64,000 nucleotides of DNA from Thiocapsa rosea (GTDB lineage Bacteria; Pseudomonadota; Gammaproteobacteria; Chromatiales; Chromatiaceae), in NCBI RefSeq assembly GCF_003634315.1, contig NZ_RBXL01000002.1, positions 1 through 64,000 of the forward strand. Direction: 5' to 3'. Of the stretch, positions 7,659 through 40,466 are shown piece after piece (position 1 is the stretch's first letter; each line of letters starts with the position of its first letter). A program made the position numbers and the translations under genes. Below the pieces are notes generated by a model that saw only the letters and a program-made list of their open reading frames with translations, did no database searches and was not told where the DNA came from.

Positions 7659-7715
7659 CCGTCACTATGACCCCGTCCAACGACGGGGTCCTCACCCGTT
7701 ACGGAGACCATCGCC

Positions 7716-8471
7716 ATGTTGCTTCACCCCACCCTGGAGACCCTCGCGCAACTGCGCCTCGACGGCATGCTCAAGGCCCTGCAGGAACAACTCCAGATGC
7801 CGGAGATTCAAACCCTGAGCTTCGAGGAGCGCCTCGGCCTGCTGCTCGATCGCGAACTGAGCACGCGTGAGAATCGACGCCTCAAGACCCGGCTGAAACA
7901 GGCCAAGCTGCGTGAGCCGGCCGCCATCGAAGACCTCGACTACCGCACGCACCGCGGCCTGGACAAAGCCCTGATGAGCCGCCTGGCGACCGGTCAGTGG
8001 ATCGGCGAGCACCTCAACGTCATCCTCACCGGGCCGACCGGCGTCGGAAAAACGTGGATCGCGTGCGCCCTGGCCCACAAGGCCTGCCGCGACGGCTTCA
8101 CCGTGCGCTATCTGCGCCTGCCCCGGCTGCTGCAGGATCTGGCGATGGCCCGCGCCGAGGGCCGCTACACCAAACTGCTCGCCGAACTGGCGCGCACCGA
8201 GCTGCTGGTCCTGGATGACTGGGGCTTGGCCCCTTTGAACGACGAGCAGCGGCGCGATCTGCTCGAAATCCTCGACGACCGTTTCAAGACGCGCGCCACC
8301 CTGGTCACCAGCCAACTCCCGGTCGCCCTTTGGCATGACTACCTCGGCGATCCGACACTCGCCGACGCCATCCTCGATCGCCTCGTGCACTGCGCCTACA
8401 AGATCAATTTGACCGGAGACTCGATGCGCAAACACTCCACCGGGTTGACAGACGATCCCGCCCTCGCGTAA
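7716..8471 (+). CDS. istB: IS21 family helper ATPase IstB
   Basis: 251 residues, AAA+ ATPase related to DnaC. Walker A is 'GPTGVGKTWIACALA' near residue 109, Walker B 'LLVLDDWG' near 166. It lies 57 bases downstream of istA in the same orientation, the standard IS21 order. IstB assembles on DNA and selects the target for IstA. Intact. Confidence 0.95.
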   Translation: MLLHPTLETLAQLRLDGMLKALQEQLQMPEIQTLSFEERLGLLLDRELSTRENRRLKTRLKQAKLREPAAIEDLDYRTHRGLDKALMSRLATGQWIGEHLNVILTGPTGVGKTWIACALAHKACRDGFTVRYLRLPRLLQDLAMARAEGRYTKLLAELARTELLVLDDWGLAPLNDEQRRDLLEILDDRFKTRATLVTSQLPVALWHDYLGDPTLADAILDRLVHCAYKINLTGDSMRKHSTGLTDDPALA

Positions 8472-10260: not shown

Positions 10261-10994
10261 TGCGCGATGACTCGATTCAACAGCGCCCGCCGCTGGTCAT
10301 AGTCGGGCATCAACTTCTCTAACAACGCCCAGAACCTCGGCCCATGATGCGCCTCCTCCAGGTGACAAAGCTCATGCATGATCACGTAGTCGATGCACTC
10401 CTTCGGCGCCTGGATCAGCTCCAGATTAAGGGTGATGGTGCCGTCCGCCGCACAACTCCCCCAGCGCTTCCGCATTCGCTTGATCTTGAGAATCGGGCGC
10501 GGGATCCCTTCGCGCTCGGCCCGCGTCTGGCAGACCTCCAGCCGCTGATGGAAGACGGCCTCCGCCCGATCGCGAAGCCATGCCTCGAGTCGCCGACGCG
10601 CCAACGCCGGCGTGGGCTCTTCGCGGCTGGTGATTTGAAAATAGCCGCGCAGACACTTCACGCTGTTCACCTCTCCCTGAATCGCGCGTAGCCGATACTG
10701 CCGACCGAGGTAGCGGTGGGTCTCGCCATTGACGAAGCGTCGCGGCGGCTGCTTGGGCAGATAGAGCTCGAGCTCGCGCCATTGCTCGCGGATCCATGCG
10801 CCATGTTTGCGCACCCTGGCGCGGATCACCTCGGGGTCGGAGTCGAGCGGAGCAGTGACGCTCACGCGTAGATCCGGATGCACAGAGATCGCCAGCGTCT
10901 TGCGCGCCCGGAAACTGATCTCATAGTGGATCGTGGTGCGCCCCCAATGCACGCAGTCACGCGCTGGCGACTCCGTCTCACCCGTTGCGCTCAT
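10257..10994 (-). CDS. YgjP/SprT-like metallopeptidase of RM locus
   Basis: 245 residues of the YgjP (DUF45, M48-like) family. The zinc motif is 'HELCHLEEAHHGPRFW' (HExxH plus downstream His) preceded by the family signature 'RMRKRWGSCAADGTITLN'. Proteins of this family are common companions of type I restriction systems, but their substrate is not established. The start overlaps the HsdR stop by 4 bases (ATGA), so the two are translationally coupled. Confidence 0.9.
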   Translation of the reverse strand: MSATGETESPARDCVHWGRTTIHYEISFRARKTLAISVHPDLRVSVTAPLDSDPEVIRARVRKHGAWIREQWRELELYLPKQPPRRFVNGETHRYLGRQYRLRAIQGEVNSVKCLRGYFQITSREEPTPALARRRLEAWLRDRAEAVFHQRLEVCQTRAEREGIPRPILKIKRMRKRWGSCAADGTITLNLELIQAPKECIDYVIMHELCHLEEAHHGPRFWALLEKLMPDYDQRRALLNRVIAQ

Positions 10995-13900
10995 AGGTGT
11001 GCTCGTTTGCGGGCGATGTCCAGACAGCGTTCCATGATTGCATCCATGTCGACAGTCTCGAGGTCTAATCCCACCGTGTCGCGCAGCTCGAAGAGATAGT
11101 CGTCAATCGCATTGCTCATCTGCTGTTGCACGTCCGCGTTATGGACCCAGTCGCGAATGCTGCGGACAGCGATCAGGTCCTCGATGCTGGTCGCCATGTC
11201 CACGGCGAGCTGGGTCCGGGTGTCGACGTCGTGCTGCGGGTAGCGCTCGAGGACCTCGCCCACCACGCCGAAGAACGCCTGGGCGGTGCGACGCCCGCGC
11301 AGCGGCGCCGGGATGGCGTCCTCCTGTCCCTGAACGATGGCCGCGTGAAAGCCCTCCATCCGCTTGAGATACTCCACCTCGTCGATCCGACCGGCCCGGT
11401 AGTCATCGATGGCCTGTTGCACCAGGTCGACAAAACGCTGATAGCGCACGGGATCTTCGTCCATCCTCTCGGTGATGGTCCGCTTGAGGCGGCTCGCGAT
11501 GGTGTCCGCTTTCGCGGCGTTGCCCTCGACCCGCTCGACCTCGGCTTGGAAGGCGTTGACGTTGAAGATATCCACCTGCTGGGTGATGACGCTCACGTCC
11601 GGCGACTGGATGTGCGCGTCCATGAGCTTGCGGATTTGCTGCTCGTAAGCGCTGTAGTCGACCTTCTCGGCGTAGCGCTGCTGCACCGAGCGGCGTAGCT
11701 GTACGAAAAACTTGAGATCCCGCTTGTACTGCGCGATGCGGTCTTCGGGGGTCTGCGCGAAGAAGATCTCACTGCCCAGCGCAACCGCGAGTGTCTTCAG
11801 GTAGGCGCGCAGAGCCGCGTAGAAGTCGGTGCGCACATCCTCGGGCCCGAGGTGGCGCTCGAGCGCTTCTTTGTCCTGCTTGTTCTTGACCTCCTTGAAG
11901 ATGCCCCAGAGGTCTGAATGGAGCTGCGGCAGTCGAGCAATCTCGGCGGCGACGTCGGTCAGCACCTCGGTCAGATCGACGTCCTTGGGATCGAACTCGG
12001 CCAGTGAGTCATAGGTGCACATCGCCTCATTGAGTTTGCCGAGCACACCGCGATAGTCGATCAGCAATCCATGCTCTTTCTCTTCGTAAAGCCGGTTGAC
12101 GCGGGCAATGGCCTGCAGCAATGAGTGCTCTTGGAGCGGCTTGTCAATGTAGAGGACGCGATTACGCGGCTCGTCGAAGCCGGTCAAGAGCCGGTCGATG
12201 ACGATCAGGAGTTCGACCCCATCGGCCCGGGAGAAGGACGCCAAGGTGTCATCGTTGTAGTGCTTCTCCGAGCCGTGGCGGTCCATCATCGCTTGCCAGA
12301 AGTCCTTGACCGCCTGGCTCTCGGCGCGCAGGTCGGGCTTGGACATGATGACCGCGCTCTCGACGACGCCGAATTCCTCGAAGAACCGCTGGTAGCGGAT
12401 CGCGCTCTCGCGCGAATCGGCGGCCAGCTGGGCCTTGAACCCGGTACCCTGGATGTTCTGGCGGTAGTGCTCGCCGATATCGTAGGCGATCATCCTCAAC
12501 CGCTGCTCGGCGCGCGAGAGTTCGCCCTCGCTCGCCATGCGCCGTTTGAGATCGGCCGCCTGAGCCTCACTCAGATTGCGCGTAACACGCTCAAACCAGC
12601 GTTGCAGGGTGTCTTCCTGTAGCTCCAGCTCGGCCACGCGCCCCTCGTAAAGTAACGGCACCACAGCCCCGTCGGCGACCGCCTCACGCATCGGATAACT
12701 GTGGATGAAGCCGCCAAAGCGCGCGGCGGTGTTTTTCTCCTTCTTGGTCAGAGGGGTGCCGGTGAAGGCTAGGTAGCAGCCATTGGGGAAGACCTGGCGC
12801 ATCAGTGCCGCCGTCTCGGCATAGTTGCTGCGGTGTCCTTCGTCGACCAGTAGGAAGGTATTGGGGTCCGGATCGCTCAGCTTGTAGCGTTTCGCGGCCG
12901 TCTCGAACTTGTCGATGACGGTCGTGATGACAGGGACCGATCCGGCCTCGATCAGCTCGGCGAGATGCTGACCGCTCTTGGCCCGCTTGGCGGTCTTACC
13001 GCAGGCCTGGAAGGTGCCCCACAACTGCTTGTCGAGATCGATACGGTCGGTCACCAGCACGATGCGCACGTTGGTCAAGGCCGGATGCAAAGCCAACGCC
13101 TTGGCCAGCATGACCATGGTCAGCGACTTGCCGCTGCCGGTGGTGTGCCAGATGACGCCACCTTGGCGCCGTCCCTCACGCAGGACGATGACCCGCCGCA
13201 GCGTCTCCTGCACCGCGAAGAACTGCTGATAGCGCGCGATCTTGCGTACGCCTGCGTCGAACAGCACGTAGCCATAGGCATAGTCCAGCAGCCGCGAAGG
13301 GCGCAACATGGCCCAGAGCACGCGGTCTTGCTCGGTCGGCATGCGCTCGCCGCCCGACCACAAGTCCTCGAAGTACGGTAGCGCTGCGCTGTAGGTGGTG
13401 ACCTCGTCCTCGCGCGGGGCAAAGAGCTTGGCGTGTGTCTCGGCGCTAAAGCGATGATTGGCGGCCGTTCGAACCGCCGCCGTGTCCTCGTCCTGCTCAC
13501 GCCAGCGCGACCAGAACTTCTCCGGGGTGCCGACGGTGCCGAACAGCACGTCATTGACCGAGGTCGCCAGGATCACCTGCACGAATTGGAACAGGTGCGG
13601 AATTTGGTCGGGCTGCTGGTAGTCGGTGAGCTGCTCGATCGCCACCTTGACCTGCGGTCTGCCGCCGGCCTGATCCTTGTCGCGACGCTTGCACTCGATG
13701 ACCACGAAGGGGATGCCGTTGACGAACAGCACCAGGTCGGGTCGCCGCGTGGTCTTCGCCCGGCTGCGCTCCACCGCGAATTCATCGGTGACATGGAAGA
13801 CATTTCGCTCCCAATGTACCCAATCGATGAATGCCAGCGAGCGTCCCTTACGCTCTCCTTGGATGGTCTCATCGAGGCTCGTGCCCAGCGTCAGGAGGTT

Positions 13901-14191
13901 GTAGATCGTCTCGTTGGTATGGATCAGCCCATCGAAGGGTACTGTGGTCAGGCGGCGCAGCGCCTCGTCGAGGCTGTAGGGCGAGAACGGATAGGTATTG
14001 CCGCGCGTCTCGAAGCGGGCGTGCTCCTCGAGCCAGGACCGCAGGATTCCGGTCAACACCACCTGATCGAGTCGCCCGCCACGCAGAGCCAATGCCTCGT
14101 CCGGGGGCAAATAGGTCCAACCCAGGGCCTCCAGCACCTGGATGGCGGGGATCTTGGAGTCGAGGTCCTCAAGATAGGGAGAGAGTGACAT
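10991..14191 (-). CDS. hsdR: Type I restriction enzyme R subunit
   Basis: 1066 residues from ATG 14191, which has CAGGAG 8 bases upstream; a longer frame exists to 14473 but its extra part overlaps the next gene. The N-terminal nuclease core 'DLVLFVNGIPFVVIECKRR' (around 150-168) has the PD-(D/E)xK residues. The Snf2-type translocase follows with Walker A 'HTTGSGKSLTMVMLAKAL' (about 350), 'LLVDEGHRS', 'LAFTGTPL' and motif VI-like 'QAIARVNR'. It translocates DNA and cuts unmethylated targets with HsdM and HsdS. The gene begins 25 bases after the HExxH gene. Confidence 0.96.
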   Translation of the reverse strand: MSLSPYLEDLDSKIPAIQVLEALGWTYLPPDEALALRGGRLDQVVLTGILRSWLEEHARFETRGNTYPFSPYSLDEALRRLTTVPFDGLIHTNETIYNLLTLGTSLDETIQGERKGRSLAFIDWVHWERNVFHVTDEFAVERSRAKTTRRPDLVLFVNGIPFVVIECKRRDKDQAGGRPQVKVAIEQLTDYQQPDQIPHLFQFVQVILATSVNDVLFGTVGTPEKFWSRWREQDEDTAAVRTAANHRFSAETHAKLFAPREDEVTTYSAALPYFEDLWSGGERMPTEQDRVLWAMLRPSRLLDYAYGYVLFDAGVRKIARYQQFFAVQETLRRVIVLREGRRQGGVIWHTTGSGKSLTMVMLAKALALHPALTNVRIVLVTDRIDLDKQLWGTFQACGKTAKRAKSGQHLAELIEAGSVPVITTVIDKFETAAKRYKLSDPDPNTFLLVDEGHRSNYAETAALMRQVFPNGCYLAFTGTPLTKKEKNTAARFGGFIHSYPMREAVADGAVVPLLYEGRVAELELQEDTLQRWFERVTRNLSEAQAADLKRRMASEGELSRAEQRLRMIAYDIGEHYRQNIQGTGFKAQLAADSRESAIRYQRFFEEFGVVESAVIMSKPDLRAESQAVKDFWQAMMDRHGSEKHYNDDTLASFSRADGVELLIVIDRLLTGFDEPRNRVLYIDKPLQEHSLLQAIARVNRLYEEKEHGLLIDYRGVLGKLNEAMCTYDSLAEFDPKDVDLTEVLTDVAAEIARLPQLHSDLWGIFKEVKNKQDKEALERHLGPEDVRTDFYAALRAYLKTLAVALGSEIFFAQTPEDRIAQYKRDLKFFVQLRRSVQQRYAEKVDYSAYEQQIRKLMDAHIQSPDVSVITQQVDIFNVNAFQAEVERVEGNAAKADTIASRLKRTITERMDEDPVRYQRFVDLVQQAIDDYRAGRIDEVEYLKRMEGFHAAIVQGQEDAIPAPLRGRRTAQAFFGVVGEVLERYPQHDVDTRTQLAVDMATSIEDLIAVRSIRDWVHNADVQQQMSNAIDDYLFELRDTVGLDLETVDMDAIMERCLDIARKRAHL

Positions 14192-14216
14192 CGGATGGGC
14201 TCCTGGTGCGGTCACG

Positions 14217-15410
14217 TCAGCCAAACAAGTCCTGCTGACCCTCGTGGCGTGCTTGCTGAGCAGCGGCTGCCTTGGCTGCTGCGCGCTCGGCGCGTTCTTC
14301 TGCCTGCTTCTGTGCGACATACGCGTCGATCGCGCTGGTTTGATAGGGCCAAAACAGCGTCGTGTAGGCCTCGTTCGGAGCCGGAACCCACGCATGCAAC
14401 TGCTTGAGCTCCGCGTCCGTTCCGACGAGGTAGGTGGGAATGTCGGGCTTCGGGACCAGTGCGGTGAAGCCATTAGGCATCAGGTGCTTTGCCAAACAGC
14501 TCAGCGGTGCGTGGTCGACAGCGTCCGGCGCCCCGATCATCTGGGCGATCAGGTACGCCCCGCCGCTGACGTAGCGGCCGCCGATGTAATGCCCCGCGTC
14601 GCGATAACCGGCCGGCTCGAGCCGCCAGTGACCCTCCAGGGCCGCTTGGTAAGTCTTGATGACTGCGGTCTTGTAACCAGCCTTCACCCGAGCGAGGAAG
14701 CCCAGGGCGTTATGCGCGTACGCGTTCGCGAGGGCCTCTTCGAGCGGCGCGTGTGGATAGTCGAATCCGTTCTCTCGCGCACGTTTCCGGTACTCCAGGT
14801 AGACGGGCCTACCCGTATCGGAAGCAGCGCCGAGGATCTCCAAGTAGGTGGCGGTTGATTCCGCCATGTGATGGAAGAATTCGTGATGGAAGACTTCGAA
14901 CAGGACCAGGTGCGCGAGCGTCTCTGGGGAATAGAGATTTAGACCCTGTGCCAGCGTCTGAAGCCGCTTGATGTATTTCAAGAGCGGCTCGACCAGAAGA
15001 TAAACGCCCCACTGGTCGAAGGGTGGATAGTGGAAGGGCCGGTAGAAGGCCATCGCGTCGGCCGGCAGCTTCTTCCAGTCAAGAGTCCTCACCGCGATCT
15101 TAGGCTTCTTGACCGCTTGCCAAACGGCCTCTGGGCTCACGCCAGAGGGTGAGACTTTGCCGAGCCGTTCTTTCAATTCCTTCCGTTGCTTGGTTGTCAG
15201 AGGCGTTGTTCGGTGTCGTCGGGAGGTCGGCGCAGCGAGCGCAAGGCTTGCACCATCCAGCAGCTCGGGGCTCGTAAGATCGACCGCCGGAATGTCCATC
15301 GTCCCGCCGCTACCGACCAGATTTTGCTGACTGAGCCACTCGAACAAGGTCTCCGGCTTCTCGTCGAGCATCGGCGGTCGATGGCCAAGAGGAACATCAG
15401 CCGCGGTCAT
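14217..15410 (-). CDS. Putative gluzincin-type metallopeptidase inside RM operon
   Basis: 397 residues, not a standard RM component. Residues 171-183 read 'FEVFHHEFFHHMA', containing HEFFH (HExxH, 176-180). Some 45 residues later 'APLEEALANAYAHN' offers a third ligand Glu in the E-(E)-A-x-A-N context of gluzincins. N-terminal 80 residues are polar. The C-terminal 50 are Ala/Glu/Gln-rich and end in 'QQDLFG', a pattern resembling DNA-clamp-binding tails (QxxLF), which may be chance. Position between Abi and HsdR in one direction suggests a role in the defence locus. Activity is inferred from motif only. Confidence 0.7.
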   Translation of the reverse strand: MTAADVPLGHRPPMLDEKPETLFEWLSQQNLVGSGGTMDIPAVDLTSPELLDGASLALAAPTSRRHRTTPLTTKQRKELKERLGKVSPSGVSPEAVWQAVKKPKIAVRTLDWKKLPADAMAFYRPFHYPPFDQWGVYLLVEPLLKYIKRLQTLAQGLNLYSPETLAHLVLFEVFHHEFFHHMAESTATYLEILGAASDTGRPVYLEYRKRARENGFDYPHAPLEEALANAYAHNALGFLARVKAGYKTAVIKTYQAALEGHWRLEPAGYRDAGHYIGGRYVSGGAYLIAQMIGAPDAVDHAPLSCLAKHLMPNGFTALVPKPDIPTYLVGTDAELKQLHAWVPAPNEAYTTLFWPYQTSAIDAYVAQKQAEERAERAAAKAAAAQQARHEGQQDLFG

Positions 15411-15603
15411 TGCAGCGGCTTCCGTGTGCTTGTGACGTGAGCGCCCTCCGGAGCGAGCGTCCGCGTCCCGGCAGCGGCCAGGGCAACAGCCGCTGAATCA
15501 TAGGACTGGGCTTTTCCCGGTCGACAGAGGGACTTTGGACTCGATCCGAGGCCCTTTTGTTTTTTGGCGTCTGGTCTATCTTCAGCGCGCGGCTTGCTAC
15601 CGG

Positions 15604-16515
15604 TCAGGTCAGATTCCATAGCGGATGCTCCATCCAGTCTTCGGGAAGCCCCATGCGATTGCGCCACCGCGGCGCGCCCGCGATCGGGGTCAGCAGTTCT
15701 TCGATGGCCGCTTGCCAGTCGATCCCCTGGTGATGCGGGCACAGCATCTGACGCAGGATCAGCAGGGCGATCCAGGCACGGTTGCGGTGGGGAACGCCCG
15801 GCGGCAGCCAGCGCGGATCGCGGTTTGGGACCTTGGGCACGATGCTCAAGCCTCGGTCCCAGAGTCGGCTGTGATGGGCGCAGATGTTGCGAACATGCGA
15901 GAGGGTGTGGAGCCAGGAGGTCAGCACTACACCATCGACGCCGTAGAGGGCCGCGATGGGGGCGCGGTCGCGGTCGCGCAGCGCCGCGAACCACATGGAC
16001 AGGTCGCCCAGGGTGATGACCTCGGCCATCTTCCACACCGGCAGCGCCGGAAAGCCATGATAGGTCTGGCTGTGATGGGCGATGAACAGCTCTTTCGAGC
16101 GCTCGCCCGCGCGCGTCAACGAGGCTAGCCAGTCGTCATGGCTGACCCGGCGGCGGGGATCGAAGCTCGGGCGGAAGTTGTGCCGGTCGAGATGACCGAA
16201 GACGCCATAGCGGTTGGCGAAGCGGTCAGCAATCGCGCTGCGCAGCGCCACTTCCACCCGCTCGATGGCATCGAGGACCAGCATGCGAAACTGCCGATCC
16301 AACTCGTAGAGCCCGATCACGGTGGCGAAGGTAAGACCGGACTCGAAGCTATCGTCGGGTTGCTTGAAGGGCAGCCAGTAGCCGCTGAGGCGGTAGTATC
16401 CGACACGTTTGAGGGCATGCAACGCCGCGGATGGATCCTCGATCATTAGCCCGCGACTGGCGAGGGTGCGCAACAGTGCCTTGGGTGGAAGCGGCGGCTT
16501 GGCGTAGGGTTTCAT
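15604..16515 (-). CDS. Abi_2 (AbiD/AbiF) family abortive infection protein
   Basis: 303 residues from ATG 16515; a TTG six codons upstream is less likely. The family start 'KPPLPPKALLRTLASRGL' and 'RVGYYRLSGYWLPF' mark Abi_2 (PF07751). Residues 209-214 read R-N-I-C-A-H, the RxxxxH motif of HEPN ribonucleases. Members stop phage growth by damaging RNA in the infected cell. It sits 194 bases after HsdS and 194 before the HExxH gene, both gaps without genes, so it may be transcribed separately or be an insertion in the RM operon. Confidence 0.9.
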   Translation of the reverse strand: MKPYAKPPLPPKALLRTLASRGLMIEDPSAALHALKRVGYYRLSGYWLPFKQPDDSFESGLTFATVIGLYELDRQFRMLVLDAIERVEVALRSAIADRFANRYGVFGHLDRHNFRPSFDPRRRVSHDDWLASLTRAGERSKELFIAHHSQTYHGFPALPVWKMAEVITLGDLSMWFAALRDRDRAPIAALYGVDGVVLTSWLHTLSHVRNICAHHSRLWDRGLSIVPKVPNRDPRWLPPGVPHRNRAWIALLILRQMLCPHHQGIDWQAAIEELLTPIAGAPRWRNRMGLPEDWMEHPLWNLT

Positions 16516-16560
16516 GCCTGCCGACCGCCCCAAAAAAATACCCGCCAGGGTTGCGCGTCA

Positions 16561-16580
16561 CGCACCGGCGAGCCGGTGCG
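16561..16580. terminator. GC-rich palindrome between hsdS and abi
   Basis: CGCACCGGC-GA-GCCGGTGCG is a perfect 9-base-arm palindrome in the hsdS-abi gap. It has no T tract on either side, so it could slow transcription, stabilise an mRNA end or act as an operator. Confidence 0.4.
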
Positions 16581-16709
16581 GAGAGGCGTGGCGGGTCTGT
16601 TACTCCTGAGTATGAGGGTATTACCTGTATCACACAATCGGCGTTGCCAATCGCCAGGAGCGAACAATGAGCGATGGTTGCGTTGGCTTCCGGCCATGGC
16701 GCGCATCCA

Positions 16710-17917
16710 TCAAGCCGCCGCGTCCGCGACCTGGACCCTGACCTTGCCGGTCAGTAGCTGCTGCATCAGGCCGCGTTTCTGGGTCTTGAGGGCGGCGAGT
16801 TGGGAGCGGAGGACTGAGAGCTCGCGGTCTGCCTCAGAGAGCAATTCGACAATTCGCCGCTGCTCTCCAACTTCGCCAGGTAGATGGATCTTTTGCTTGA
16901 GGTAGTCTTCCACGACAAAGAATAGCTTTTCGATATGGACGCCGTTGCTGGTGATGTAGGTCTTCCAAACCATGCGGGGCAACTTTGCCAGCCATGAGAA
17001 GAATTCGATGTCCAACACTTGAGAATCCCGAGCCCGCAGGATCGTATAGGAGCTTGAGACTTTGGCTCCATCGAAATTCGGCGTGACCAGACCTGTTGCG
17101 CCGTGCACAACCTGCCGCTTAGAGATCAAGAAGTCATCTGTATGGATGGTGTGTAAGTCCTTTGTTTTGATGCCTCGTCCTTGCTTCGTCGCGCGATGAA
17201 ACAGCCCTTGTGACCCTCGGCGGACACTTGCTAGACGATACGTTGCGTCTTCATCCCATTCGACTGGTCGCCTCACCTCGTGGAGAACTTCGCCGAGCCT
17301 AACCTCCCGCCATGGCTCCGAAAACCCCGGAAATCGCCGCTTGCCGGTCAGCAGTTGCTGCATCAGGACCTTGCGCAGCGTCAGCTTGGCAGCGATCAAA
17401 CGTTCGGTGAGGGAGATGGCGCGGTCCCATGTCCCCAAGATGCTAGCGATTCGATCTTGCTCAATGGCTGGTGGAACTAAAATCGGGAATGACTCTAAAA
17501 GGTCTGTCTGTAGTCTTCCTGTTCCATGGCCCGCCTCGTTTACCAACTGCATCAAATTCGATTTTCTAGAAACGAGAAAGTAGCCGAGATATGCATTATT
17601 GATGGAGCTGGTTTCGAGCGCTTTGACATCCTGATTAAACGCAACATCCCGCGTTGCAATTGCAAGCGGCACATCTTTCTTGAGTGTCATACCTCGAACC
17701 AACAGAAGGATGCTTCCCTTCTTTGCAATCCGAGTCCCGTTTCTTGCTCCCACCGCTGTGATCTTGATCAACGAATCGCCGAGGTAGAACGATTTCAAAT
17801 CTTTTGCGGTGATCCAAGGTATGTTTCCGCCCCAATATTCTTGAACTGTCTTCGCTGGGGTTCCACCAGATCGGAACTTGACGAGCTTGCCAAGCTCTTC
17901 CTGCCGCCACGACTTAT

Positions 17918-17921
<4 letters not shown>
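16710..17921 (-). CDS. hsdS: Type I restriction enzyme S subunit
   Basis: 403 residues with two target-recognition domains: TRD1 about 1-140 ('VKFRSGGTPAKTVQEYWGGNIPWITAKD') and TRD2 about 200-345, each followed by a conserved helical spacer ending in 'LTGKRRFPGF' and 'LMQQLLTGKVRV'. This is the complete two-TRD form that reads a bipartite sequence. Its ATG overlaps the hsdM stop (ATGA). The AT-richer base composition compared with hsdM is usual for TRDs exchanged by recombination. Confidence 0.95.
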
Positions 17922-19465
<1,544 letters not shown>

Positions 19466-25495: not shown

Positions 25496-26260
25496 TCAGA
25501 CGCGACTGGCTTTTTGATAGGCTTCCTCCAAATCCCGATCGTAAATCTTCAATTGATCGACAGCAGATTGAGAGACCAGTAAAGACTCTTTCTCTTTTTT
25601 CATGCCGATAAGCCTTTCCTCTTCATCTCCAAGAGACGTTTCTTCTTGTCTAAATACTAACCTTCCCGCGCCGAATTCAGCAATGAGTTCTTCTGTTGTT
25701 AGCTCTGCTATCGATGGATCTATTTGCTTGATTTTCTGCTTGAGTTTAGCAATGCTCTCTTCTTGTGTTTTGATGTTTATGGTTAGTATGTTCAATTTAG
25801 ACTCGACATCAGCGGACAAGCGACTAATTTGATTCTCGGACCGCCAAAACCCTTCCGGTACTTGTTCGTCGCCGAAAGCTCCCCTAAGATGAACCTCTAC
25901 TCTTTGGCACAAGTGAGGCAGAACGTCCATCTTTATCTTCAGCCTGTTCCAGTCGTCTTCCTTCTCTAGATGGGCAAGGGTTTTTTCCACCTCCATCTTG
26001 TACAGATCAAGATTATCTTCTTGTTTTTTCAATTGCGCTGATTGAATCAAAATCGCGTACACCAAAGCCGCCAATGCCAGACCGGTAAACAAACTATTAA
26101 GCACTCCGTAGGCATCGCCAATCGGCCCTGCTTTAGCCATTACTTTTGCAATAGCTAATGCGTCCGATTCAGATAAAAACTGAATAGCGAAAGGAAGCGA
26201 AATCCAAAACAATAAAACGGAAAAGGCAATCAGAAAAAAGTAACTCAATCGCGGGTTCAT
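25496..26260 (-). CDS. Membrane protein resembling phage-abortive-infection family
   Basis: 254 residues from ATG 26260, chosen because GAGGTGG lies 4 bases upstream. Two membrane helices (about 8-28 and 55-78) with the loop 'GPIGDAYGVLNSLFTGLALAALVYAILIQS', a pattern I know from putative abortive-infection membrane proteins (PutAbiC-like). The rest is coiled coil (about 80-110 and 145-235). Base composition is much more AT-rich than its surroundings, pointing to recent transfer. No effector domain is visible, so function is inferred weakly. Confidence 0.6.
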   Translation of the reverse strand: MNPRLSYFFLIAFSVLLFWISLPFAIQFLSESDALAIAKVMAKAGPIGDAYGVLNSLFTGLALAALVYAILIQSAQLKKQEDNLDLYKMEVEKTLAHLEKEDDWNRLKIKMDVLPHLCQRVEVHLRGAFGDEQVPEGFWRSENQISRLSADVESKLNILTINIKTQEESIAKLKQKIKQIDPSIAELTTEELIAEFGAGRLVFRQEETSLGDEEERLIGMKKEKESLLVSQSAVDQLKIYDRDLEEAYQKASRV

Positions 26261-26462
26261 TAGCCACCTCAAAAATAGCAAATCATCAATATAAAATGCC
26301 TTCGGACTGGAAGGAAGCTCAATGCGATGAATTAAATTTCCAGAAATCCTGTGTCATTGTGCGGCCTGGAAAGGCCGTAAGTTCTAGCGGGGTGGGATCC
26401 CGCGCCGCGAGCCGGGTACTGAGCCTTGCGGCGTCTCCGGCAACGGAGATGTCGATGCCTAG

Positions 26463-27773: not shown

Positions 27774-28719
27774 CACCGGGTGGCCGCGGGTGATTGCTCA
27801 CCCGCGGCTCCCACAGATCCGGACGTGCCCAACTCGGCCATCCGGCTCCTCAGGCTAAGCAGATGCTACACCCCGTAGTGGTGGTGCACCCTGACACCAC
27901 GAGGCATCTTGCTCGTGGGTCTCGATCGCACTCTTCTGTCGTTGTGTTGAGAGGACGATGCGGCTCGATGTCCGCGCCCTCGTTCCCTCCAGAAGCTGCC
28001 TAGACCGGTCGGCCGCTTCCCTCCCACGGGTCCTCTGGGGCGAGTTCCCCGCGCTCGGCGGTACTATCAGCCGACTCTGACTGCTCAGCCGTCATCGCGC
28101 CGCACTTCGTTGCCTTCGTTTGGCGCTACCTTGCCGTCGGTCCTGTTCGCTCCCGTCGGCTGGACCAGCGCCGACAGGCCAGGGCGGCTTCTTACGCGGT
28201 GCCCGCGCCGCGTCTCGGGCAAGGAACAACTAATCGCTCCCAGGTTCCTGGACGACCCGTGCGTACATGCCCTGCTCTCAGACCCCGGCGGAGTCTCGAC
28301 ATCAGGCCGTTACGATGCCGAAACTGTTGCCTTCCGGTGTTCCGAATACGTCGGCTCCGCTGAACTCAGTAACGGGGCTCCATCACATGGCCTGCACACC
28401 CCCTGCGTACGCTTCGCAGGCGGGATCGCTCCCGCACCACGCAACACTCGGTTCCGGCGGATGGCCAGTCCTTACCGGCTCGGGACTTGCACCCGGTGGG
28501 GCGCAAAAAGGAGTTTCCGATTGGCTTATCCGTTCGCTATCTTCCTCTCCTTCCAGGCTTTGCCTGGCGCAACGGTCTTATGAACAAAGCCCGGCAAACA
28601 AGCGATAGCCCGGTAAGCTCCTTGCTAATCAGGAGCCCCAGAGGCCGGCATTCGAAATTCCCCGGTTAACCGGGGGCTGGATACTAGCTATCGCGTGGTA
28701 TCTCCACCATACGCGGCAC
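27774..28719 (-). mobile_element. Group II intron, reverse transcriptase largely deleted
   Basis: Minus strand. The 5' end GTGCCGCG (28719) is followed by domain I helices (GCGATAGC pairs with GCTATCGC about 70 bases on; 'GGTGCAAGTCCCGAGCCGG'). At the far end, GAGCCGGATGGCC ... GGGCACGTCCGGATCTG is a domain V hairpin, and CCGCGGGTGAGCAATCACCCGCGG is domain VI. Only a few dozen degenerate RT codons remain in domain IV. The ribozyme parts look nearly complete, so it may fold, but it could move only with protein supplied in trans. Confidence 0.7.
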
Positions 28720-28784: not shown

Positions 28785-29144
28785 TCACTCTCCAGTGTCA
28801 AGGTTGCTGATGTATCGCGCTAGGCGACATTTTTTGAGGAGGCTGAAGGTAATCTTCGCCTTCTCTGGAAAGGTCTGGCATGCCTGCGGTCGGCAGGCAT
28901 AAATCAGGCATTTTTTAGTTAGGTTATTTAAGAAGACACAGGCTCCGTTGCTCTGACTTTTCAATATTAAACCAACACCATCAAAAATAACAAACTCTTC
29001 CTTTACAGCATCGTATTTTTTATGAAGGAAACGACCAATTTTGCTAATATCATTTTCATTAACTGGACATACGCCAAGACTTGAGCAACAAAAATCGCAG
29101 CCTTCGCATAAATCTCCGCCAGTCACGTTAGGCTTTATTGCCAT
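28785..29144 (-). CDS. YkgJ-like cysteine cluster protein
   Basis: 119 residues. Eight conserved-type cysteines in 'CEGCDFCCSSLGVCPV' and, later, 'CLIYACRPQACQTFPE' match the YkgJ family of zinc or iron-sulfur chelating proteins. Its ATG overlaps the stop of the radical SAM gene by one base (TAATG), so the two are translated together. Companions of this kind next to radical SAM maturases may assist cluster loading or peptide handling. AT-rich like its partner. Confidence 0.85.
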   Translation of the reverse strand: MAIKPNVTGGDLCEGCDFCCSSLGVCPVNENDISKIGRFLHKKYDAVKEEFVIFDGVGLILKSQSNGACVFLNNLTKKCLIYACRPQACQTFPEKAKITFSLLKKCRLARYISNLDTGE

Positions 29145-30526
29145 TACTTAAGGTCGCGCCAAGCACAATATGTTTTCCAGCCGACCGAACAGTCTTGTTG
29201 GCTTATCGCGTCGATTAGTCCTGTGTCAGAGAAATGGTCCGCGGGGCATGGCGAACATACATCCTTCGCATCACAGCTTGCACACTTTGGATAATCGTCT
29301 ATAGTGACCTTTCGCCATCGCGCCAGACTGGAAGAGTTTTTCCATACATGTGACAAACTTTCACTTATGATGTTTCCACATGGCATACGCAATGAATTGC
29401 ATGGAAACAAGTTACCGTAAGCATCTAAAGAAAAATTTCTGAATCCGGCCTGGCAAATCATCCGTGTGCTTTTATCGACTCTACTTAAAGTTCTTATGTC
29501 GTCCCTAAGGTATGGGTTCACTCTTGCGTCCCACAGCAGGGAATCGAAATCACGAGATTGGATGCGCAATTGCTCAGGAATTCTTTCGTTGTTTTCGCTC
29601 TTTGATAGCTTGACGCTGAATTTAAGCTCTAGCCCTTTCTTTGTTGCCCAGGCATGCAACTCATCGACAGATTCTTTATTTATCCTGGTTAATGGGCACG
29701 CAATCGTCGGTCGTATCCCGAATGACTGAAGCGAATCGATAGCCTTCAATGTCTTCTGCAAGCTTCCTGGAGTGCGCGTGATGCCATCGTGGATGCCGTC
29801 ACGTAGGGAATAGACGGATATTTGGACATTTCTAGGCTTAACGTCGGCTATAAGCTTTGCTCGCTCATCGCTTAAGAGAGATCCGTTCGTGAGTATGGAA
29901 ATAATGAAGCCTCTGTCGTAAGCAAGCGAAAGGATCTCAAAGAAATCAGGATGTGCCAGGCATTCGCCACCAGTGAACTCTATATCTATAACACCAATTG
30001 CCATCATTTCTTCTAATGCTGTTCTCGCCTTATTTACCGTCCAGGCACCAAGACCCGGAGTGGCGCAGTAACAGTGAGAGCACTTCAAATTACATAAACT
30101 GGTTATTTCCCAAGTGGCCGAATACGGAATCATTCTTGAGGAAAAATAATCGATTACCTCATTCTCGTCTATGCTGCTAGTTCCTTGCCTGGATACCGCG
30201 ACTGTAGTTTCTGTCGTTTCTAATTCGCTCCATTGATTATCTCCCGCGACAATGCCAAGAGCAGCCAGTTCCAGAACGAAGTTTTCGACGTCCGATTTAA
30301 CCTCAGAAAACATTTCATCGCAATTGTAAGCCTTACATACTTCACGTGAGATATCAAAAACCTCAAGCCCTTTTTCTATGAGCCGGAATATCTCGGCGGC
30401 TGTTTCTTCAAACTTAAAGAATTGCCTGTTCTCCCGATTCACGGCAAGAATTATTTCACCAATATCGCGAAAAACATAGTCTGTCTTATTAAAGAAAAGC
30501 GGGCGTAATAAGAAATCCGTGCTCAT
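29144..30526 (-). CDS. PqqD-radical SAM-SPASM peptide maturase
   Basis: 460 residues. Residues 1-95 form a PqqD/RRE-type domain that would bind a precursor leader. 'EITSLCNLKCSHCYCATPG' holds the CxxxCxxC radical SAM cluster (Cys145, 149, 152), with 'FTGGECLAHPDFFEI' as the SAM motif. The SPASM domain supplies auxiliary-cluster cysteines in 'ICQAGF', 'FPCNSLRMPCG' and 'CASCDAKDVCSPCPADHF'. Such fused enzymes modify ribosomal peptides (RiPPs). Base composition is distinctly AT-rich against the region, a sign of transfer. A candidate substrate is encoded just upstream. Confidence 0.9.
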   Translation of the reverse strand: MSTDFLLRPLFFNKTDYVFRDIGEIILAVNRENRQFFKFEETAAEIFRLIEKGLEVFDISREVCKAYNCDEMFSEVKSDVENFVLELAALGIVAGDNQWSELETTETTVAVSRQGTSSIDENEVIDYFSSRMIPYSATWEITSLCNLKCSHCYCATPGLGAWTVNKARTALEEMMAIGVIDIEFTGGECLAHPDFFEILSLAYDRGFIISILTNGSLLSDERAKLIADVKPRNVQISVYSLRDGIHDGITRTPGSLQKTLKAIDSLQSFGIRPTIACPLTRINKESVDELHAWATKKGLELKFSVKLSKSENNERIPEQLRIQSRDFDSLLWDARVNPYLRDDIRTLSRVDKSTRMICQAGFRNFSLDAYGNLFPCNSLRMPCGNIISESLSHVWKNSSSLARWRKVTIDDYPKCASCDAKDVCSPCPADHFSDTGLIDAISQQDCSVGWKTYCAWRDLK

Positions 30527-30557: not shown

Positions 30558-30687
30558 TTAATATCCACAAGCGTGTATCTGAACTTTCCTGGTCCTGAAA
30601 TCAATCTTGGGCTGCGCGTCAATGTCGCGGGTTTTTACCATGCTTTGCATGAATGCCCTTGGCAAAAATCCTGAAGAATCCTCTCAC
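30558..30687 (-). pseudogene. Candidate RiPP precursor, split between two frames
   Basis: GTG 30687 has a perfect AGGAGG 5 bases upstream and opens 'MRGFFRIFAKGIHAKHGK', stopping at 30619. The next frame, from ATG 30650 (weak AAGG), reads on through 'TRDIDAQPKIDF' to a Cys-containing end 'VQIHACGY' and stops at 30558, 31 bases before the maturase. Removing one base from the A5 run at about 30,630 joins them into one 42-residue peptide. Either a lesion, a sequencing error, or frameshift expression; as it stands either short frame alone could be the product. The 'ACGY' end recalls ACGX-type targets described for SPASM maturases. Confidence 0.45.
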
Positions 30688-30919
30688 TGCTTCCTCCTAG
30701 GTCAAAGCTGAAAACCTCAGCTTGAGTCGGCAGCGATAGCAATTCTAATATTTCAATTTATATTTCGTGGTATGGAGTGTCTGCAAGTAAAGTAGATTTC
30801 TTGCATTTTTTCTACGACGCGCCGTATATTTTTGACAATATTTTTCGAGTCTGCCTGACGGCGGTCAAGAACTCGCCCTCGCGCCCTGCCCCGAAATGTC
30901 CCCGCAAATGGGGGCAATA

Positions 30920-32452: not shown

Positions 32453-32712
32453 TTCGCCGTCTGGTCGGTTAACCGAGCAAACCGGTTGCATCCTCTTCCC
32501 TTCAGCCGCGCCTGCGCGCCCGCCTGGGCGCAGGCGAACTGGCGACAACAACAGATGCCATGAAAGACCTCGCCCGACCGGAAACCCGGTGATGGTCGGC
32601 ACTTTGTCGCCCGTGACAAGGTGAAGACGCAGTAACGGCGAAGGCGCTCCAACCTTACCGATAGCCTCGAGGGCTACGCCGCCAGGCGACAGGGGTGTGT
32701 CTGACCAGGGAT

Positions 32713-32750
32713 GGTCGAGCGTACATGCTCGCTGCTGTCTTTTGATCGTT
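32713..32750 (+). promoter_or_regulatory. Two-box promoter element, copy 2
   Basis: GGTCGAGCGT (32713-32722), 15 bases, TCTTTTGATCGT (32738 on). The spacing is identical to the other copies. It argues that the membrane-protein gene starts at 32840 rather than at the ATG at 32711, which overlaps this element. Confidence 0.55.
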
Positions 32751-32839
32751 GTAGGTTAATTAAATCGATAATCATCCGCCTACAGCGTCTCTACCGACGA
32801 GCACAGGTTCTCAATCTCGTACTGTTCTGGAACTCACGT

Positions 32840-33601
32840 ATGTTCAAGCTGAAGCGTAAATATAAGGATTCATCGATCGAAGGACTTCGGACCTTCATCT
32901 TCACTCGCTTCTATCCGAGGGTCGTTGTGGGTGGCTATGTGGGCATGCATCACCTTCGTAATCTGATCAGTCCACTCGGGGTCAACACGATCCTGCTGGT
33001 CTACGTTCTCTTGCTCACCCTGCTGGTCGCGCAGGAGTTGCTGCATGGCGACCCACTGTGGCGGTCCGTGCTCCTCACATTGCTTGTCGCACATGTCGTC
33101 TACGACATGCTGGCGAATGTCGAGTTGATCTACATCGCGATGGCGCAGGAAACGCCCTCCTTCGAACTCGAAGTCGTGATGCTTTCCGACTGCATGACAT
33201 TCGATGATCGACTCCGGCGGCTGCGTGTCCGGGGGGATCCCAAGGCGTTGGCACATGCGGAGCAACAGGCCGCCGTTCTGAGGGAATGCGGTGAGCAGAG
33301 TTTGGCATGGCCGGCCGGGCTGAAGATTCGCGACAAGCGCAGCGGTCAGTGTTGGAAGTTCTACGAGCACGAGCAGAACGATTACGAAGCCCACTTGGAC
33401 CTCGGGAATCAAAAACGCATGGTGATGGACACCGACGATTTTCTCTTTATTTCCGTCATCCAAGAGTTGATCGATCGGCGTTTGTCGCCGAAAAGGCGCG
33501 ATCAGATTTGGAATCGACTCTATCGTTTGGGTCTGTACATTAAACCTTGCTCAGAGAATGCGCCGATCCTGCTTCCTGGAGAAGCGGGTGTGATCGTCTA
33601 G
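32840..33601 (+). CDS. Membrane protein of the E1/AAA cluster, unknown family
   Basis: 253 residues from ATG 32840; a frame from 32711 would begin inside the promoter element. Two closely spaced hydrophobic helices ('LGVNTILLVYVLLLTLLVAQEL' region and 'SVLLTLLVAHVVYDML', about residues 47-92) are flanked by soluble parts. The C-terminal 160 residues are cytosolic with no motif I recognise ('SGQCWKFYEHEQNDYEAHL'). The inverted repeat at 33624-33662 follows and may end its transcript. Likely the membrane anchor of the neighbouring system, by context only. Confidence 0.65.
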   Translation: MFKLKRKYKDSSIEGLRTFIFTRFYPRVVVGGYVGMHHLRNLISPLGVNTILLVYVLLLTLLVAQELLHGDPLWRSVLLTLLVAHVVYDMLANVELIYIAMAQETPSFELEVVMLSDCMTFDDRLRRLRVRGDPKALAHAEQQAAVLRECGEQSLAWPAGLKIRDKRSGQCWKFYEHEQNDYEAHLDLGNQKRMVMDTDDFLFISVIQELIDRRLSPKRRDQIWNRLYRLGLYIKPCSENAPILLPGEAGVIV

Positions 33602-33770: not shown

Positions 33771-35888
33771 ATGCTTGAAACGTTCGACGTTGGTTTCGAC
33801 GAGCATGATCATCCGTTTCAGCCGGCCTTAGCGGTCGATGAGATGGCCGTGGTTCGCTTGGCTTTGGGTCTGCTGTTCGACAGCGGCGGCATCTCCCGCT
33901 TTCTCAATGCGCTTCCACACACCCCATCAAGACCGCGACTAGGGCAATTTCTGGGTTTGCAGGAGTTGTTGGCCGACGCGGCTCAACCGGACCAAGTCCT
34001 TCGGCAATTGACGGCCCGGCGAGGCGAAGTCGGCCGCTTCGACGGCCGCTTCGGCCCACCGCTCGACGATAGCCTCCAACAGTTCGCGAGTCATGTCGGG
34101 CTTTCGACCACCGAACAGCGGTTGCTCGGGTTAGCCACTCTGCTGCATCTGCGTCCGTGTCTCGCGAAACTGGCGTCCAAAGGGTTCGGCGAGGTCGATG
34201 CCGTCGGGTTGGTGAAGATCTGTGCACCGCTCTTGAGCACCAGTGAAAAGGAAATGCGTGCAGCACTTGCGCCCACTGGGATCTTGCTCCGATCCGGGTT
34301 GATGACGATTCAGCGCGATGAGCGCAGGAAGCTGCACGAACACTACGAATTGCTCCCTGGGGTGATCGAGGCGCTTTGTACCGGTGGCGATGAAATCGGG
34401 ATCTTGCTCGCCCGTTGGGTGACACCCGCATCCGCGCCGACGCTGACACTCCGTGACTACCCGCACCTGTGCCAGCCTGTCGGGTTGGCCCGGAAAACGC
34501 TGAAAGCGTGTCTTCGTAGAAATACCATCGGGACGAACTTGTTGCTTTATGGGCCACCCGGCAGCGGCAAGACGGAGTTAGCGCGCGCCTTGGCGGCAAC
34601 CCTTGGCATGGCACTCTATGCGGTGCCCTGCGCGGACGAGCAGGGTGATCCGCTCGATGGTGCCAAGCGGTTGCGTGCCTATCGGCTTGCGCAGAACGTG
34701 CTCGCCCGACGGGAGGGCGCAATCGTGTTGTTCGATGAGGTCGAGGATGTCCTCCCCACCCGACTCAGCATCAACCTAGGCAACTCCGACCTAACCAAGG
34801 GGTGGATCAACGAATCGCTTGAAACCAACCCCCTCCCAACGATCTGGGTGTGCAACGGCCTGGCAGGATTCGACGAAGCCTATTTGCGACGCTTTACACA
34901 GGTCATCGAAGTCGGTCTGCCCCCGCTATCCGTACGCAAGCGCATGATTACCTACCGGACGCGGACCTTGTCGGTCTCCGCCGATTGGTGCGCGCGGGCG
35001 GCAGCGCACCCTGGGCTTTCGCCTGCCTTGTTGTGCCAAGCGGTACGCACGGTCGCGACGGCGGGGTATCGCCGCGTGTCCGATCGCGAAGCGGCATTGG
35101 ACACCCTGCTTAACGCCAGTTTGAACGCCATCGGCGAGGGATGCCTGCCCTCGCGTAACCCGGTCGACGCGCTCGCCTATCTGCCTGATTGCCTCAACGC
35201 CGATCAGGATCTCGATGCGCTGGTTCGGGGCCTCCAACGCGATCCGCGCGGCCGTCTGTGTCTGATCGGTCCGCCTGGAACCGGCAAGACCGCGTTCGGG
35301 GCTTACGTGGCTCGCAAGATCAAGCGACCAGTCCTATTCAAGCGAGCCTCGGATCTACTCTCCCCGTTCCTCGGCGGTTCGGAGCAGCGGATCGCGGCGA
35401 TGTTCAAGGAAGCTTCACAGTCTGGATCAGCCTTGTTGCTCGATGAAGCCGACAGTTTCCTCCGCGATCGGCGTTCCGCCCGTCAAAGCTGGGAAGTCAC
35501 GCAGGTCAACGAGTTCTTGGTTCAGCTCGAAACCTTCGACGGGCTGTTCATCGCCTCGACCAATCTATTTGAGTCATTCGACTCAGCGGCCTTGCGGCGA
35601 TTCGATCTGAAGATCCGGTTCGACTATCTCCGCCCTGAACAGGCGTGGCCGCTTTTCAAGGCGACGCTGCGCCAATCAGGCTCACGTCTGACGCAACCTG
35701 CCATCTGGCAGAACCGGCTGGCTGCGCTCGATGGCTTGACGCCAGGCACGTTCGCCACGGTGATGCGTCGTCAACGTCTGACCCAAGAGCCACTCATGCC
35801 GCAACGCCTGCTCGATGCCTTGGTCGCCGAGTTGACCGCAGTCCAGCAAGCGCTTGTCCGACCCATTGGGTTCATGGCGGATCTATAG
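33771..35888 (+). CDS. Tandem AAA+ ATPase
   Basis: 705 residues. Residues 1-240 are helical without a known domain. First AAA+ module: Walker A 'LLYGPPGSGKTELARALA' (about 258-275), Walker B 'AIVLFDEVEDVLP' (about 316-328). Second module: 'LCLIGPPGTGKTAFGAYVA' (about 497-515), 'GSALLLDEADSFLRDRRSA' (about 550-568), sensor 'IASTNLFESFD' and arginine finger in 'AALRRFDLKIRF'. The layout is that of Cdc48/ClpA-like unfoldases or remodellers, soluble. Within a ubiquitin-like/E1 cluster it would suit remodelling of tagged proteins (inference). Ribosome site CAGGAG, 12 bases before the ATG. Confidence 0.88.
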   Translation: MLETFDVGFDEHDHPFQPALAVDEMAVVRLALGLLFDSGGISRFLNALPHTPSRPRLGQFLGLQELLADAAQPDQVLRQLTARRGEVGRFDGRFGPPLDDSLQQFASHVGLSTTEQRLLGLATLLHLRPCLAKLASKGFGEVDAVGLVKICAPLLSTSEKEMRAALAPTGILLRSGLMTIQRDERRKLHEHYELLPGVIEALCTGGDEIGILLARWVTPASAPTLTLRDYPHLCQPVGLARKTLKACLRRNTIGTNLLLYGPPGSGKTELARALAATLGMALYAVPCADEQGDPLDGAKRLRAYRLAQNVLARREGAIVLFDEVEDVLPTRLSINLGNSDLTKGWINESLETNPLPTIWVCNGLAGFDEAYLRRFTQVIEVGLPPLSVRKRMITYRTRTLSVSADWCARAAAHPGLSPALLCQAVRTVATAGYRRVSDREAALDTLLNASLNAIGEGCLPSRNPVDALAYLPDCLNADQDLDALVRGLQRDPRGRLCLIGPPGTGKTAFGAYVARKIKRPVLFKRASDLLSPFLGGSEQRIAAMFKEASQSGSALLLDEADSFLRDRRSARQSWEVTQVNEFLVQLETFDGLFIASTNLFESFDSAALRRFDLKIRFDYLRPEQAWPLFKATLRQSGSRLTQPAIWQNRLAALDGLTPGTFATVMRRQRLTQEPLMPQRLLDALVAELTAVQQALVRPIGFMADL

Positions 35889-39818: not shown

Positions 39819-40466
39819 ATGGGATATTTTGGTGAAGTCAAGAGATTCGCTAAGAATGTTGCCAGAAAACAAGGCTTCTCGGCAGCAGCTAACGAGGATT
39901 TCTATCAGGATGTTTTCGAAAGGGTTTGGAAATTCCGGCATGCATCGATCGTAAACGGCTCAGTTCATTACGGGTATGTCGAAGACATCATCACCACCGT
40001 AATCGCAGAGCAAAGGAAAGCGTACCTAAAAAACACGAATTACTTGAAGTGTCAAGAGTACGCGGAGAAGAAGCGGCTGAAAGGTACTGCCGAGGAACAG
40101 CCGAAACCCCACGATTTGGAAGTGCCTCTTCCACATATGGACGTACTGGATAACCATTACGGAGGACAATGGGTTAACCCGATGGTGTTGGGTGGCGAAA
40201 TGGATTTTCTGGGGTACGAGCAAGATCCAGTCGACGAGATTCAAGCAGAGCAGCTGCTCTTGCATTGTAAAACGGTCCGCATCTCAAAGAGTGAGAGCAA
40301 GGGAGGAGGGATTCGGGAGTCCGTCCGGGAGCTTTTGTTAAGTGGCATGACCGATGGACAAGATATCGCGGCAGAACTCCATCTTGAACAGAAACCTGTG
40401 TCGCAAGCAAAGTCTTATGTTATCAAAATGATGAGAGAAGAATTAGAAGCGTTACTTAATCGATAA
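39819..40466 (+). CDS. Sigma-factor-like protein, diverged ECF type
   Basis: 215 residues. 'FAKNVARKQGFSAAANEDFYQDVFERVWKFR' resembles sigma region 2 (the '..aeDl.Qdvf.r.wr' helix). The C-terminal 'SVRELLLSGMTDGQDIAAEL' with 'HLEQKPVSQAKSYVIKMMRE' resembles the region-4 HTH ('..diA..L.....V...k.......L'). The middle is longer than in most ECF factors and unusual. AT-richer than its neighbours. If correct, it is the natural candidate to read the five two-box elements upstream. It could instead be another HTH protein. Confidence 0.5.
   Translation: MGYFGEVKRFAKNVARKQGFSAAANEDFYQDVFERVWKFRHASIVNGSVHYGYVEDIITTVIAEQRKAYLKNTNYLKCQEYAEKKRLKGTAEEQPKPHDLEVPLPHMDVLDNHYGGQWVNPMVLGGEMDFLGYEQDPVDEIQAEQLLLHCKTVRISKSESKGGGIRESVRELLLSGMTDGQDIAAELHLEQKPVSQAKSYVIKMMREELEALLNR

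Follow-up and report, generated by a model that had tools for sequence, protein, structure and literature searches.

In the window, by which we mean the whole 64,000-nucleotide stretch of Thiocapsa rosea DNA analysed here, three genes follow one another on the minus strand: a probable precursor peptide ORF of 30 aa (30558–30650, stop included), a gene for a 460-aa radical SAM-SPASM peptide maturase with an N-terminal PqqD/RRE domain (29144–30526), and a gene for a 119-aa CxxCxxCC protein (YkgJ-like, PF03692; 28785–29144). Pfam placed PqqD (residues 29–93), Radical_SAM (140–292) and SPASM (358–419) domains in the maturase, all above gathering score, so that the three domains of the RRE-rSAM-SPASM architecture stand in one chain. 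The radical SAM cysteines are C145-C149-C152, and the SPASM cysteines are C358, C376, C415, C418, C424, C427 and C446. An AlphaFold2 model built from 16 aligned sequences reached a pLDDT of 85.7 (three aligned rows had given a poor model, pLDDT 45) and contained a beta-beta-beta-alpha-alpha-alpha N-terminal domain at residues 17–89. The closest solved folds were RiPP maturases (SuiB, SkfB, CteB and PqqE) and anaerobic sulfatase-maturating enzymes (anSME), with SuiB and SkfB first by Foldseek E-value and CteB and anSME first by Z, where CteB was the top solved fold, tied with others. The peptide-maturase architecture is certain, and the domains and fold model bear out the PqqD-rSAM-SPASM maturase that an earlier note on this DNA had proposed.

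For each of the NCBIfam models listed, the maturase scored far under the cutoff. With SuiB, SkfB and CteB it shares the N-terminal winged-helix domain, the CxxxCxxC radical SAM core, the C-terminal SPASM cysteines and, probably, an adjacent upstream precursor; however, identity in structural alignments was only 15–19%, the precursor is a different one, the window has an additional CxxCxxCC partner, and the maturase did not reach the SkfB, AlbA and StsB cutoffs of NCBIfam. The ACGX system rSAM (TIGR04340), likewise a radical SAM/SPASM protein by its model name, is associated with ACG-containing peptides, but the window maturase reached 76.8 bits where the cutoff is 400, and the window peptide has a single ACG at its C-terminus.

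The probable precursor ORF and its overlapping frames

The 30-aa ORF starts at ATG 30650, encodes MQSMVKTRDIDAQPKIDFRTRKVQIHACGY and ends ...KVQIHACGY* with its stop at 30558; a second in-frame ATG at 30641 would give a 27-aa version. An AAGGG Shine-Dalgarno-like site (30656–30660, minus strand) lies 5 bases from ATG 30650, with an anti-SD duplex of −4.2 kcal/mol, and 31 bases separate the ORF from the maturase ATG at 30526. Overlapping it in another frame is a GTG ORF of 22 codons (30619–30687, minus strand; VRGFFRIFAKGIHAKHGKNPRH), preceded by the minus-strand letters AAGCTGAGGTTTTCAGCTTTGACCTAGGAGGAAGCA; its AGGAGG Shine-Dalgarno site (30693–30698, minus strand) has an anti-SD duplex of −10.2 kcal/mol. 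This may be a leader ORF, or the N-terminus of a longer precursor if the frameshift is real. The third frame offers an ORF from TTG 30742 to 30635 that ends in HSCKAW, with no Shine-Dalgarno site (0.2 kcal/mol) and no P-x-[ILV] motif.

The earlier note had described the AGGAGG-GTG start at 30687, the VQIHACGY tail in another frame and the 31-base distance to the maturase, and we found each of them in place; translation likewise confirmed that removing one A from the A5 run in GGTAAAAACCC yields a single peptide, VRGFFRIFAKGIHAKHGKTRDIDAQPKIDFRTRKVQIHACGY*, of 42 aa (129 nt with stop). Its proposal that the gene is split by one base and would have to be joined was not supported. The note had overlooked the tail ORF's own ATG and AAGGG, as well as the coupled CxxCxxCC gene. 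Since the tail has its own Shine-Dalgarno site and ATG, no frameshift is needed and the 30-codon ORF is complete; as judged from the sequence, it is the probable precursor, intact as it stands. A precursor that is not broken provides a peptide that can be used in its present form for testing.

Dinucleotide shuffles of the 300 bases upstream of the maturase, together with 7128 real 300-bp stretches, indicated how much weight each property of such an ORF can bear. A Shine-Dalgarno-preceded ORF of 20–60 aa was present in 35% of shuffles, so the short ORF by itself carries little weight, and a Cys within the last 12 residues arose by chance in 12%. The combination of a leader motif P-x-[ILVM] and a correctly spaced Cys appeared in ~1% of the shuffles and of the real stretches, and a CG(x)Y end in ~0.02%, the latter being a post hoc test. 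No sequence homologue of the 30-aa peptide turned up, either in the genome that contains the window or among plasmids, and the peptide had no NCBIfam or Pfam match. When the window was scanned for promoters, terminators and RNA folds, nothing rose beyond chance level. A few bases upstream of the GTG ORF's Shine-Dalgarno site lies an inverted repeat, AAGCTGA-GGTTT-TCAGCTT (30705–30723, minus strand), a possible operator or RNA hairpin whose folding is not above chance.

Relatives of the maturase and their upstream ORFs

True relatives of the maturase were rare. Across 1,647 genome searches (repeats included), orthologues came only from G118 (L013), G489 (L016, L017 and L020), G810 (L112 and L113) and, more distantly, G647. 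No nucleotide relatives of the operon were found in plasmids, phages gave remote matches only, and viral contigs gave only remote rSAM fragments with no match to the CxxCxxCC protein; a genome-contig scan with conserved rSAM motifs was dominated by other SPASM families. In the tree, the window maturase formed a clade with L112, L013 and L017 (support 100/99), to which a sister group of L015 (Photobacterium plasmid), L024 (Synergistales) and L109 (G647) was weakly joined (84/55). This clade defines a small, previously unnamed group of peptide-modifying radical SAM enzymes. A Thiodictyon plasmid, pTs417 (L014, 5941–12018), carries another RiPP-like cluster, uncharacterised, in which a PqqD-rSAM gene is followed by a second radical SAM gene and by amidohydrolase, YcaO and TfuA-like genes.

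Four relatives have a Shine-Dalgarno-preceded ORF of 30–40 aa lying 30–80 bases upstream of the maturase: L112 (MKTYARPTLVIIRANPHKMGSCCFVNTYKTQ, 31 aa, 30 bp upstream), L109 (MSYQKPTIVAINKPTGSYAAGCPPKEGSGSFCKRCDRAQ, 80 bp), L024 (MSYRKPKVLVKSISQEHNREFKCANSKCPW, 63 bp) and L015 (MSYSKPTVLAKSSTYMAQCRPNSKPSGRPCNPPGPSGR, 77 bp). All four encode P-x-[ILV] near the N-terminus and a Cys in the core, with the leader proline at residue 6–10 and the first core Cys 13–17 residues later; a similar upstream ORF precedes the more distant L025. The window ORF has P14-K-I followed by Cys28, the only Cys of its core, and both this gap of 14 and the distance to the maturase match the relatives. Before the leader proline the relatives have [YW]x[KR] and the window ORF has DAQ. 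Numbered from the alternative starts, the window proline is P14 in the 30-aa form, P11 in the 27-aa form and P26 in the joined 42-mer, the last unlike any relative; given residue 6–10 in the relatives, the 27/30-aa start fits far better than the joined peptide.

The earlier suggestion that homologous maturases should follow a short Cys-containing ORF thus held for most readable relatives, at 30–80 bases; the clade member L017 has different upstream ORFs, which lack the P-x-[ILV] motif. The ACGx ending that the note had also expected was absent from all four of the closest relatives whose upstream ORF bears the motif. At the L017 locus (7347–7768, G489), two tandem Shine-Dalgarno-preceded ORFs stand before the maturase, one of 61 aa and one of 69 aa that contains CDPVC. 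The G118 contig starts 160 bases before its maturase, so the precursor there is not readable, and a relative's precursor peptide used as query retrieved nothing convincing among 194 family genomes.

The CxxCxxCC protein

The start of the CxxCxxCC gene overlaps the maturase stop in TAATG, and this downstream gene is translationally coupled to the maturase. Its product scored 46.6 bits against a Pfam gathering cutoff of 23, which places it in PF03692. In G810, a single 543-aa protein (L112, 901–2532) combines CxxCxxCC, rSAM and SPASM, and L113 likewise has the CxxCxxCC domain fused to rSAM-SPASM, with the 31-aa precursor-like ORF and a terminator upstream. The CxxCxxCC domain forms the N-terminus of the L112 fusion, shares 32% identity with the window protein over 103 aligned positions, and was the only match to that protein across G810, G118, G489 and G647; the segment in between can be aligned to the PqqD region but received no Pfam call. 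Between the L112 precursor ORF and its maturase lies a strong hairpin terminator (z −5.75), a position typical of RiPP layouts. Because of the L112 fusion, which is the strongest evidence for membership, we consider that the CxxCxxCC protein belongs to the system.

The flagellin lysine methylase FliB carries a related, CxxCxxCC-like Cys-rich motif that binds [4Fe-4S] (PMC8598068), and this binding makes a redox or Fe-S role for the CxxCxxCC protein plausible. The FliB motif differs, being CX4CX3CC, whereas the window protein is a stand-alone partner of 119 aa, and methyltransfer is not implied. The protein is predicted to be a metal/Fe-S partner of the maturase. Through the natural fusion, RiPP maturation becomes connected with the CxxCxxCC (YkgJ-like) proteins, a family that is still poorly understood; no paper in the literature searched mentions CxxCxxCC alongside RiPP, or YkgJ alongside radical SAM and RiPP.

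Interpretation, alternatives and genomic setting

The ORFs with their signals, the domains, the fused relative and the leader motif common to the relatives, all read directly from sequence, point to a minimal radical-SAM RiPP operon consisting of precursor (30650–30558), maturase (30526–29144) and CxxCxxCC partner (29144–28785), a reading to which we assign a probability of about 0.58. Such an operon would most likely be a new form of radical-SAM RiPP system. We infer that the winged-helix PqqD/RRE domain would bind the precursor leader around AQPKIDF, that SAM would be reductively cleaved at the CxxxCxxC cluster to a 5'-deoxyadenosyl radical, and that hydrogen abstraction by this radical would take place in the C-terminal core (RKVQIHACGY). 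Most likely this would give either a thioether, as in sactipeptides and ranthipeptides, between Cys28 and a residue of that core, or an oxidative modification of the final Tyr. Together with the maturase, the CxxCxxCC protein would work probably as an Fe-S protein, supplying electrons or supporting a second SAM/Fe-S step. A bolder version, which we put forward as speculation with a low chance of being right, is that the operon belongs to a new class of RiPP: the CxxCxxCC domain, separate in the window and fused in G810, would be a catalytic or electron-donating subunit of the maturase, and the modified C-terminal ACGY core would yield possibly a small intracellular redox cofactor, not an exported antimicrobial.

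Other assignments of the precursor were weighed against the 30-aa ORF. The joined 42-aa peptide from GTG 30687 has an ideally spaced AGGAGG and becomes a clean ORF after a one-base deletion; since its start has the stronger Shine-Dalgarno site (−10.2 vs −4.2 kcal/mol), it stays in consideration, whether the frame was broken by a sequencing error in the A5 run or by a genuine mutation that inactivates the gene, or is bridged by programmed +1 frameshifting. A5 is a short run for slippage, however, and all 28 radical SAM domain hits of the genome (28/28) are uninterrupted, which argues weakly that indel errors are not frequent. With a complete tail ORF that has its own start signals and with the leader proline displaced to residue 26, we judged the joined form unlikely. 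The tail ORF could also be a chance frame, the true precursor being the TTG ORF ending in HSCKAW or a gene elsewhere; the frequency of Shine-Dalgarno-preceded short ORFs in shuffles and the two quite different ORFs upstream of L017 are consistent with this. Yet the TTG ORF lacks both a Shine-Dalgarno site and the motif, and the tail ORF agrees with the relatives in its motif, in the interval to the Cys and in how far it lies from the maturase, so that we regard this possibility as distinctly improbable.

Two further readings concern the chemistry and the substrate. Mycofactocin also combines a short peptide ending CG(V)Y, a PqqD-type chaperone and an rSAM-SPASM enzyme, and the V-x-I-x-A-C-G-Y end in the window mimics the MftA end V-S-I-D-G-M-C-G-V-Y. 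On this reading, the C-terminal Tyr would undergo the oxidative decarboxylation known from MftC. MftC was the best NCBIfam match of the maturase, MftA tails could be read directly from L110 (SIDGMCGVY) and L111 (TIDGMCGVY), and among 28,133 ORF ends none but those of the window and of true MftA matched [VI]xI...CG(x)Y. But the score of 116.4 bits falls far short of the MftC cutoff of 265, and GeoRSP and AhbD scored nearly the same; the MftC sequences L110 and L111 lie on another part of the tree; the window peptide ends VQIHACGY, not IDGMCGVY; PqqD is fused and not a separate MftB; there are no mft genes nearby; and the relatives' cores lack the CGY end. With no sister relation between the enzymes and no penultimate Val in the window peptide, we take the likeness to MftA as convergence or chance, leaving only a slim chance for a mycofactocin-like system and a small probability for analogous Tyr chemistry. 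That the locus is not a RiPP system at all and the maturase acts on a protein, such as the CxxCxxCC protein or another cellular protein, in the manner of anaerobic sulfatase-maturating enzymes, would accord with the anSME structures among the closest folds and with the L112 fusion. The PqqD/RRE domain argues against it, as does the 31-aa Shine-Dalgarno-preceded ORF of L112 with its attenuating terminator directly upstream, and we consider it very unlikely.

The operon sits on a 221-kb contig, with IS fragments and the remnant of a group II intron around it, and its GC content is 0.42–0.45 vs 0.62 for the whole window. The G810 locus, too, is low in GC and flanked on both sides by sequence of higher GC, and the operon was likely acquired horizontally as a low-GC island. 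No transporter or protease was recognised among the neighbours scanned. Just downstream of the operon, a group II intron D1-D4-6 match (28273–28489, minus strand, 147.5 bits) is probably a remnant. On the plus strand, a 705-aa protein with two AAA+ modules (33771–35888) resembles IetA/IteA-type defence ATPases, at a score far under the curated cutoff; before it lies a gene (32711–33601) whose 296-aa product matched no family. Type I restriction-modification genes occupy 10991–19465 on the minus strand (R 10991–14473, S 16710–17921, M 17918–19465). Two ORFs with no Pfam match, at 25496–26281 (minus strand, GC 0.43) and 39819–40466 (plus strand, GC 0.47), are likely further recent imports.
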